NCBI GenBank assembly: GCA_001797815.1
Contig: MGQK01000065.1
Coordinates: 52,270 to 73,868 of the forward strand
DNA length: 21,599 nucleotides
Origin: Deltaproteobacteria bacterium RBG_13_61_14
Lineage (GTDB): Bacteria; RBG-13-61-14
Direction: 5' to 3'
A program made the translations under genes and the position numbers. How positions within the stretch are numbered: position 1 is the stretch's first letter; each line of letters starts with the position of its first letter. This document shows, piece by piece, positions 18,935 to 21,023 of this stretch. The notes below the pieces were generated by a model. It was not told the DNA's origin, searched no databases, and saw only the letters and a list, made by a program, of their open reading frames with translations.

Positions 18935-18977
18935 CTCAAACTTAATTTCGGTCCTAAAGGAGGAACGAACTGAAACT

Positions 18978-21023
18978 ATGAACGAAAAAAAATCTTCGGA
19001 TAAACCTCCACAGCGAAGCAAAAACGGCAAGCATTCCCGAACGATCCTGGGACCTGTCCCCAACCTGGAAGAGCATGTGCGGCCGGATTGGTGGCGTTGC
19101 ATTTTCAATTCGCTCTACATCAAGACCGATGGGGACGTCGTCGACGATCAAAACATTACCCACCAGGAAGTTGATCTCTTTTCCCAAGTTCTCCAGATTT
19201 CCCCGGAAAATGTGATCTTGGATCTCTGTTGCGGCCAGGGCCGCCACTCGATGGAGCTGGCGCGCCGCGGGTTTAAGAACGTGGAGGGACTCGACCGGTC
19301 GCACTACCTGATCCAGAAAGCCAAGGCTCTGGCCAAAAAAGAGGGCCTGTCGGTCAAGTTCCGGGAGGGTGACGCGCGCAAGCTGCCCTATGCGCCCGAT
19401 ACCTTTGACGTGGTGATGATCCTGGGCAACAGCTTCGGCTATTTCGAGACCATGCAGGAAGACCTGCGGGTGCTCAAGGAAGTGTTCCGGGTGCTCAAGC
19501 CCGTGTTCCGGGTGCTCAAGCCCTGGGGCCGCCTGCTCATTGACGTCACCGACGGCGAATACCTGCGCCAGCACTTCCAGCCCCGGTCCTGGGAATGGAT
19601 TGACAAGAAGCATTTTGTCTGCCGGGAGCGCTCCCTCTCGGTGGACAGCCAGTGCCTGATCTCCCGGGAAGTGATCTCCCACGTCCAGAAGGGCGTGATC
19701 GCCGACCAGTTCTACATGGAACGGCTCTACACCAAGGAGAGCCTGAGCGAACTGATGAAGGCGGCCGGGTTCAGCGAGGTCGCCCCCCATGCCGAGCTTT
19801 CGCCCGACTCCATCCGCAACCAGGACCTGGGCATGATGGAGCGGCGCGTCCTCATCACCGCCCGGGTGCGCAAGGAATGGGCCGCTCTCAACGTCAAGCC
19901 CAAGCCGACCATGCGCCAGGTGGCGGTGGTGATGGGGGACCCCCACAAGCCCGACCCGCTCAAGCCCCTCTCCGTCTTTGACGATGACGACTTCTACACC
20001 ATTGACCAGTTGAAAGACGCCTTGCGCGAGTTAAAGGAATACCACTTCCTCTACCTCAATAACCATGACACCCTGATCCACGACTTGAGCCGGCTGGCCG
20101 GCAAGGTGGACCTGGTCTTCAACCTCTGCGACGAGGGTTATTTGAACGACCCGCGCAAGGAGCTCCACATCCCCGCGCTCCTGGAAAAACTGGACCTGCC
20201 CTATTCCGGGGCCGGACCCCAGAGCCTGGCCTATTGCTACGACAAGTCCCTGGTGCGCGGCATTGCCAAGGAAATGGAAATCCCGGTCCCGGCCGCTTTC
20301 TTTATCAAGCCGGAAGATACCGCTTTCGACCTGCCCTTCGGGCTCCCGGTGATTGTCAAGCCCAATTTCGGGGACTCCAGTTTCGGCATCACCCAGCGCT
20401 CGGTGGCCTTTCGGCCGGATGACCTGCTCCACGCCATCTCCGAAATCCGCGAGAAGTTCGGCTACGATAAGCCCATCCTGGTGGAAGAGTTCCTCAAGGG
20501 CAAGGACCTGAGCGTCGGGATCATCGGGAACCCGCCTTCCAGTTACACGGTTCTGCCCATCACCGAAGAGGACTATTCGCAGGTGCCGGAGGACTTGCCT
20601 CCGATCTGCGGCTACGAGGCCAAGTGGTGTCCGGATTCGCCCTATTGGAAAATCACCTCGGTCCCCGCGGCGATTCCCAAAGAGACCCAAAACTTCATTG
20701 TGGAATGCTGCCTCAAGTTGTTCGAGCGGCTGGAATGCCGGGACTATGCCCGGTTTGACTGGCGGCTGGACTCCGAGGGCCGTCCCAAGCTGCTGGAGGT
20801 CAACCCCAACCCCGGCTGGTGCTGGGATGGGCACCTGGCCAAGATGGCCAAGTATGCCGGCCTTTCTTACATGGACATGCTGGTCCTGATCCTCCGCGCC
20901 GCGGAACAGCGCCTGGGCTTGCAAGCCGTCTGCCAGAAGAAAGAGGAGGAGACCACCGCCATGGAAGCGGCGGGAAAAGAGCTATGGGCAAATTCCCATC
21001 CGCCGCTCCGAGAAGGAAACTGA
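18978..21023 (+). CDS. SAM methyltransferase fused to a D-Ala-D-Ala-ligase-type ATP-grasp enzyme
   Basis: This 681-aa two-domain protein has no export signal. Residues about 60-305 form a class I methyltransferase: motif I LDLCCGQGRH (81-90), GLDRS, GDARKLPYAPDTFDVV, then strands. Residues about 312-650 form an ATP-grasp ligase of the Ddl type: NLCDEGY, LPYSGAG, Lys461 in PVIVKPNFGDSSFG, VEEFLKGKDLSVG, and metal ligands Asp594, Glu607 and Asn609 in RFDW and LLEVNPNPGW. Such ligases join a carboxylate to an amine through an acyl phosphate. The fusion suggests one small molecule that is both ligated and methylated, such as a modified dipeptide. Two tandem promoters drive it. The AAGGAGG box is unusually far (14 bp) from the ATG. 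Product and substrates are unknown. Confidence 0.85.
   Translation: MNEKKSSDKPPQRSKNGKHSRTILGPVPNLEEHVRPDWWRCIFNSLYIKTDGDVVDDQNITHQEVDLFSQVLQISPENVILDLCCGQGRHSMELARRGFKNVEGLDRSHYLIQKAKALAKKEGLSVKFREGDARKLPYAPDTFDVVMILGNSFGYFETMQEDLRVLKEVFRVLKPVFRVLKPWGRLLIDVTDGEYLRQHFQPRSWEWIDKKHFVCRERSLSVDSQCLISREVISHVQKGVIADQFYMERLYTKESLSELMKAAGFSEVAPHAELSPDSIRNQDLGMMERRVLITARVRKEWAALNVKPKPTMRQVAVVMGDPHKPDPLKPLSVFDDDDFYTIDQLKDALRELKEYHFLYLNNHDTLIHDLSRLAGKVDLVFNLCDEGYLNDPRKELHIPALLEKLDLPYSGAGPQSLAYCYDKSLVRGIAKEMEIPVPAAFFIKPEDTAFDLPFGLPVIVKPNFGDSSFGITQRSVAFRPDDLLHAISEIREKFGYDKPILVEEFLKGKDLSVGIIGNPPSSYTVLPITEEDYSQVPEDLPPICGYEAKWCPDSPYWKITSVPAAIPKETQNFIVECCLKLFERLECRDYARFDWRLDSEGRPKLLEVNPNPGWCWDGHLAKMAKYAGLSYMDMLVLILRAAEQRLGLQAVCQKKEEETTAMEAAGKELWANSHPPLREGN
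19467..19523 (+). repeat. 21-bp in-frame tandem duplication inside the methyltransferase domain
   Basis: Bases 19482-19502 and 19503-19523 are identical 21-bp units that encode VFRVLKP twice. The 12-mer CGGGTGCTCAAG also occurs at 19467, 19488 and 19509, exactly 21 bases apart, so the run reads as LRVLKE-VFRVLKP-VFRVLKP-WG. Confidence 0.9.

Follow-up and report, generated by a model that had tools for sequence, protein, structure and literature searches.

A conserved methyltransferase–ATP-grasp fusion of bacteria and archaea and an associated DoeB-like hydrolase

What does a single polypeptide that joins a methyltransferase to a Ddl-type ATP-grasp ligase make? The question is raised by a gene in a 21,599-nucleotide stretch of the genome of Deltaproteobacteria bacterium RBG_13_61_14, the whole of which is referred to here as the window. 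The original prediction held that a complete SAM-binding domain and a complete Ddl-type ATP-grasp domain lie in one frame, and Pfam, an AlphaFold model and the 681-residue open reading frame all bear this out. Translation shows the frame to be open throughout, ending in a stop after residue 681. Its GC3 of 0.81 matches that of the neighbouring genes (0.74–0.85), indicating that the gene is not a compositional chimera. An Rfam search gave zero matches in the window and no informative element at eight other fusion loci. The main features of the gene are as follows.

18958–18963, + strand: AGGAGG, Shine-Dalgarno-like, 14 nt before the ATG, read directly from the sequence
18978–21023, + strand: methyltransferase–ATP-grasp coding sequence, 681 aa (ORF call, Pfam, structure and at least 80 full-length relatives)
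18978–19046, + strand: basic N-terminal tail, residues 1–23 (charge comparison of 73 family members)
19047–19094, + strand: family signature LGPVxNLExHVxPDWW, residues 24–39 (alignment)
19089–19874, + strand: methyltransferase domain, residues 38–299 (Pfam, structure and sequence comparison)
19908–20921, + strand: ATP-grasp domain, Ddl-type, residues 311–648 (Pfam and structure comparison)

Both domains score far over the curated Pfam cut-offs (Methyltransf_25, E = 1.5e-21; Dala_Dala_lig_C, E = 5.7e-26). An AlphaFold model of the whole protein, built with 39 aligned relatives (mean pLDDT 78.5, pTM 0.51), shows two complete folds, one per domain. Residues 38–299 resemble the methyltransferase 1wzn (Z score of 24.0, 2.4 Å over 225 residues), and residues 312–643 resemble Ddl (Z score of 26.7, 3.0 Å over 293 residues). 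The methyltransferase half modelled alone reaches a pLDDT of 86 and a pTM of 0.86; at a whole-protein pTM of 0.51, the placement of the two domains relative to each other is undefined. Judged by their motifs and predicted folds, both halves look catalytically intact. The signature that precedes them contains five residues invariant in the family alignment (G25, L30, E31, W38 and W39).

The methyltransferase half displays the hallmarks of a class I SAM enzyme: a glycine-rich motif I, an acidic ribose-binding residue (D106) and the complete fold.

19221–19244, + strand: SAM motif I DLCCGQGR, residues 82–89 (family alignment)
19425–19445, + strand: motif IV region GNSFGYF, residues 150–156, all invariant (family alignment)
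19467–19523, + strand: 21-bp in-frame tandem duplication encoding VFRVLKP twice, private to the window

Its best solved match by sequence is 9ri2 (E = 1.4e-20), the structure of NmbA, an enzyme that adds a methyl group to the cysteine nitrogen of bacillithiol (PMC12719100). Its structural neighbours include the N-methyltransferases CypM, TylM1, GSMT and GNMT together with several C-methyltransferases, and we favour a putative N-methyltransferase activity for this half. The 21-bp duplication, which was seen in none of the 62 relatives compared, falls in a low-confidence loop of the predicted methyltransferase domain and is either genuine or an artefact of assembly.

Alignment with two Ddl proteins locates the corresponding elements of the ATP-grasp half.

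20121–20162, + strand: NLCDEGYLNDPRKE, residues 382–395, replacing the Ddl HGxxGEDG loop
20358–20387, + strand: KPNFGDSSFG, residues 461–470, with the ATP lysine and Ser of the Ddl KPxxxGSSxG motif
20613–20627, + strand: YEAKW, residues 546–550, omega loop (YEAKY in Ddl)
20751–20759, + strand: RFD, residues 592–594, Arg and first Mg ligand
20796–20834, + strand: EVNPNPGWCWDGH, residues 607–619, Mg ligands and then an altered acceptor-site segment (EANTSPGMTSHSL in Ddl)

The ATP-grasp lysines and metal ligands had been described as intact, and they are: K423, K461, K549, D594, E607 and N609 align with Ddl, and all of them, together with R592, are invariant in the family except E607, which is kept in at least 90% of members. 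The motifs retained relative to the two Ddl proteins are DK (K423), KPxxxxSSxG (K461 and S467–S468), YEAK (K549), RxD (R592 and D594) and ExN (E607 and N609). The same alignment confirms that FNLCDEGYLNDPRKE stands in place of the HGxxGEDG loop and places GWCWDGH at the position of Ddl GMTSHS, the segment that holds the second D-Ala in Ddl. Residues W614–H619 are all invariant in the fusion family, which indicates an acceptor site that is specific yet unlike that of Ddl.

Could the protein nevertheless be a ligase of peptidoglycan synthesis that forms D-Ala-D-Ala (or D-Ala-D-Lac/Ser), or one that confers resistance, with the methyltransferase as an appendage? The closest sequence matches of the ATP-grasp half, Ddl and VanA, speak for this reading, but every Ddl/Van model scores below half of its cut-off on the fusion (TIGR01205, 113.7 against 245.65; PRK01372, 117.5 against 243), and a model search found no curated family that covers it. 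A tree built from 31 ATP-grasp domains puts the fusion halves in one clade (support of 100/100, stem of 1.91 changes per column), with Ddl across a separate 100/99 branch; tandem ATP-grasps of Planctomycetota are the nearest groups, joined with weak support (86/76). In the seven fusion-bearing archaeal genomes, no Ddl scored above the curated cut-off, and the fusion coexists with a true Ddl in four bacteria (Desulfonema magnum, an Atribacterota genome, HR19 and GBS-1). Because the clade is separate, the acceptor site altered and the archaeal carriers devoid of Ddl above cut-off, we reject a cell-wall role as very unlikely and leave the ligase-plus-methyltransferase explanation next to no probability. 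The earlier judgement that this is not a standard Ddl thus holds on scores, clade and loop alike. The window genome's own Ddl match (G000:C113:65115-65626, L208) consists of two adjacent short frames, as if frameshifted.

Searching both halves together, as had been suggested, showed that the fusion is conserved. A scan of 84,980 species genomes, with relatives counted as listed, returned at least 80 loci, each covering nearly the whole query and both domains at 65–74% identity, with neighbouring genes that are mostly not shared. The matches listed fall into some 25 bacterial and archaeal lineages, mostly of uncultured anaerobes. Bacterial carriers include Aerophobetes, Atribacterota, Planctomycetota, Desulfobacterota, Zixibacteria, Aminicenantes, Thermotogota, Spirochaetota, Chloroflexota, Actinomycetota, Omnitrophota and Hydrogenedentota, among others; the archaeal carriers are Jordarchaeia, Freyarchaeota, Lokiarchaeota, Altiarchaeota and Methanophagales. 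The gene is present in 31 of 50 Atribacterota genomes and sparse elsewhere (8/297 Desulfobacterota and 8/294 Planctomycetota); among the 60 genomes nearest to that of the window, it occurs in the window's genome itself and no other.

Homologues consistently split into separate genes would have spoken against a functional fusion. No split version appeared among the matches listed or in scans of Planctomycetota, Desulfobacterota and Atribacterota; every relative with a high score is a full-length fusion. Those from the scans of Planctomycetota and Atribacterota reach at least 800 bits, against no more than about 190 bits for relatives with the ATP-grasp or the methyltransferase domain only. Partial copies turned up in just two genomes, both of Atribacterota: in one the gene is reduced to a truncated remnant, in the other its C-terminal half is interrupted. 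The remnant (L209:4714-5031), a decayed piece of the methyltransferase half, lies beside a nadA-like gene, at the site where a related genome (L175) has a full-length fusion gene.

Archaeal and bacterial fusions interleave in the family tree, in which phylum labels require 25 changes for 20 groups, a pattern that fits transfer between phyla and to which mis-binned contigs contribute. One Methanophagales and one Nitrosotalea contig (L026 and L028) carry almost the same fusion gene, and at least one of the two contigs is probably mis-binned. Carriage by mobile elements was considered and dropped, as viral contigs, phages and plasmids yielded no full-length relative and only distant single-domain matches.

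We next turned to gene context. Clustering of 825 neighbouring ORFs, with Pfam counts on 108 of them, revealed no conserved operon around the fusion; the neighbourhoods have almost nothing in common. Small recurrences comprise CorA (five, four of them in one Atribacterota clade), AstE (three), and MgtE (in sister genomes), MscS and MarC (two each). CorA, MgtE and MscS recur too seldom beside the fusion to bear on a solute role. The original prediction had also drawn a parallel to mycosporine pathways, in which a methyltransferase is paired with ATP-grasp ligases; no neighbouring gene backs the parallel, and no cyclitol (DHQS-like) synthase is found among the recurrent neighbours of fusion loci. 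AstE was the sole recurrent neighbour that held up on closer analysis.

The AstE/AspA gene overlaps the end of the fusion by 16 bp in D. magnum, follows it by about 69 bp in a Desulfobacteraceae MAG and precedes it by about 61 bp in a TA06 genome, and the three hydrolases are 63–64% identical. In Phycisphaerae SG8_4, a decayed copy interrupted by stops lies about 120 bp downstream of the fusion, and an intact, unlinked one is present as well. The hydrolase gene is therefore adjacent to the fusion in two phyla, decays beside it in a third and is unlinked in other genomes, among them the window's own (G000:C79:44674-45663). Close orthologues, defined by E below 1e-100 (57–64% identity, the query itself aside), are present in 13 of 52 fusion-bearing genomes, including that of a Jordarchaeia archaeon, and in none of 575 sampled genomes that lack the fusion (286 Planctomycetota and 289 Desulfobacterota). 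The hydrolase seems restricted to fusion carriers. Conversely, it is absent from about three quarters of the examined genomes with the fusion, and fusion-bearing Atribacterota hold distant family members only, indicating that it is not needed for synthesis.

By Fisher's test, the association gives p = 7e-4 in the evenly drawn samples alone (2/16 versus 0/575), each phylum sample being drawn around a genome chosen for its fusion that is also that sample's one positive. Within Planctomycetota, with the addition of fusion genomes found independently of the hydrolase, it gives p of about 1e-7 (5/14 versus 0/286); both tests ignore phylogeny and concern a family picked after inspection of neighbours. 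Hydrolase and fusion distances correlate across 13 genomes (r = 0.53, Mantel p = 0.002), which shared descent alone could partly explain.

All 13 hydrolases keep HGDE, DLH and ELG, and with them the Zn ligands and catalytic Glu of the AstE/AspA family; the motifs DLNRSFPG and ELGE are also present. The window genome's protein matches PF24827 at 94.2 bits (cut-off of 25), and among solved structures Mlr6093 and DoeB-type proteins are its best relatives. The nearest NCBIfam model is DoeB, but the score of 64.6 bits lies so far under the cut-off of 402.7 that the hydrolase represents a different subfamily. In several Planctomycetota, the unlinked hydrolase gene occurs with genes for an L-2-hydroxyglutarate oxidase, a CGGC-domain protein and a PriA-like protein (L199, L203 and L205, and L201 by eye); the oxidase could be a sign that the product contains a hydroxyacid. 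In two lineages (L204:6212-9200 and L206:5509-10079), the partner hydrolase gene is closely followed, possibly by chance, by one for a class II tRNA synthetase that has an editing domain and looks prolyl-type by eye.

At the level of sequence and structure, then, the protein has intact domains, is an obligate fusion in a clade apart from Ddl and is associated with a hydrolase. The reading we prefer, to which we give an even chance, is that a soluble bifunctional enzyme builds a small N-methylated amide, or pseudo-dipeptide, that the partner hydrolase recycles. Ddl-type ATP-grasps form an acyl phosphate and then pass the acyl group to an amine, and AstE/AspA enzymes hydrolyse N-acyl amino acids having a free carboxylate. 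By this scheme, the ATP-grasp half would activate a carboxylate as an acyl phosphate and couple it with the amine of an amino-acid-like acceptor; the other half would methylate a nitrogen of a substrate or of the product, and the DoeB-like zinc amidohydrolase, linked or unlinked, would cleave the amide again. The methyl group would mask the amine, as methyl groups do in glycine betaine and N-methyl-bacillithiol. That a ligase and a hydrolase of matching chemistry share genomes suggests that the two make and recycle one metabolite, whose likeliest role would be that of a compatible or stress solute in anaerobes. An amide product, methylation of nitrogen rather than oxygen and a hydrolytic direction of the partner's step are inferred; the substrates are a matter of speculation, as is the solute role, a guess prompted by the DoeB-like partner alone, and channelling between the modelled domains would be conjecture. 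Of the original proposal that the fusion makes a methylated amide or dipeptide-like metabolite or else modifies a peptide, the amide stands as the best reading, with the AstE/AspA partner as independent support, and modification of a peptide is a less probable alternative.

The three other explanations we weighed differ in what the two activities act on. In a macromolecule-modifying system, the ATP-grasp half would ligate an amino acid to the end or a side chain of a protein in the manner of RimK, the methyltransferase would methylate it, and the basic tail would dock on the ribosome, nucleic acid or an anionic surface. Such a tail is a constant of the family, with a median net charge of +5 and a positive value in 72 of 73 members on an otherwise acidic protein, and the extreme conservation (157 of 646 alignment columns at 98.5% or more) would suit a conserved target. 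The Ddl-type fold is, however, that of small-molecule ligases, the associated enzyme comes from a family of N-acyl amino acid hydrolases, and the sporadic spread within Desulfobacterota and Planctomycetota would be odd for a housekeeping modification, making this explanation unlikely.

We regard as improbable that the product is an N-methylated low-molecular-weight thiol or thiol conjugate analogous to N-methyl-bacillithiol. NmbA is the closest solved methyltransferase by sequence, and the hosts are largely anaerobes, in which thiol chemistry would be expected to matter; yet archaea carry the fusion although a survey reported no bacillithiol pathway from them (PMC12719100), and no thiol genes recur beside it. 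The halves might instead do unrelated jobs and be joined for co-expression only, or the hydrolase association might reflect nothing but a shared habitat. Most fusion genomes do lack the hydrolase and the model leaves the interplay of the domains undefined, but no lineage among the matches listed has a split version, and the hydrolase gene overlaps or adjoins the fusion in separate lineages while being absent from all 575 non-fusion genomes; we accord this explanation little probability. Returning to the N-methylated amide, a fuller account remains tentative: a previously unknown N-methylated pseudo-dipeptide of anaerobic bacteria and archaea, including Asgard archaea, would be synthesized by a single polypeptide, and a DoeB-like hydrolase dedicated to it would recycle it, with the genes moving between phyla singly.

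A defined and important product is to be expected from about 70% identity between bacteria and archaea, a constant fusion and an associated hydrolase. As one gene appears to carry both activities, that product could be sought with a single expressed protein and metabolomics. If it were a compatible solute or a thiol, it would constitute a new metabolite class for subsurface anaerobes, including Asgard archaea and Atribacterota. We found no description of the fusion in the openly searchable literature, and the passages found in a survey of archaeal fusions make no mention of it. We classify the system as a new combination of known domains and known chemistries, obligate and very strongly conserved, with a partner first recognised here.

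Compared with known systems, the fusion shares with Ddl (PF07478) the fold, ATP lysines, Mg ligands and omega-loop lysine. It differs in the replaced HGxxGEDG loop, the acceptor segment WCWDGH, the separate clade, the attached methyltransferase and its occurrence in archaea without Ddl above cut-off. The methyltransferase half has the fold of NmbA (PDB 9ri2) and the segment SFGYFET in common with it, but NmbA is a stand-alone protein tied to the bacillithiol pathway, and the identity of about 27% over the aligned structural core is under the 35% or more required in the NmbA network (PMC12719100).

The nearest non-fused relatives found, the tandem ATP-grasp pair of Planctomycetota, share ExDYS..P and YEAKW..SP.Y with the fusion but come without a methyltransferase and are linked to a lysine 2,3-aminomutase-family gene (KamA). 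Their four-gene cluster (L163–L169, for example L167:4102-7943) encodes a pair of Ddl-like ATP-grasps in tandem, a GNAT-like protein and a radical SAM protein of the lysine 2,3-aminomutase family; it is conserved in all seven loci with enough DNA and looks like a pathway to a beta-amino-acid peptide. A KamA-derived beta-amino acid, hinted at by these relatives, was rejected as the substrate of the fusion: KamA does not track the fusion in Atribacterota, being absent from many of its carriers there. A second large fusion of 714–721 aa, joining a Ddl-like ATP-grasp to a C-terminal M20-peptidase-like part, was observed at L089:1107-5759 and L091:3372-7524; it adjoins an N-formylglutamate amidohydrolase gene and, in D. 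magnum, also gamma-glutamyltranspeptidase genes.

The partner hydrolase resembles DoeB, the N-acetyl-L-2,4-diaminobutyrate deacetylase of ectoine breakdown, as an AstE/AspA zinc hydrolase with HGDE, DLNRSFPG, DLH and ELGE, and departs from it in subfamily and in its association with the fusion. By concept, the nearest precedent would be the NAGGN osmolyte system, in which N-acetylglutaminylglutamine synthetase (Ngg) fuses a group-transfer domain to an ATP-grasp, a peptidase belongs to the system and the product is a capped-dipeptide osmolyte. The likeness is one of concept only: NAGGN genes are clustered, and an acetyltransferase takes the place that the methyltransferase occupies here.
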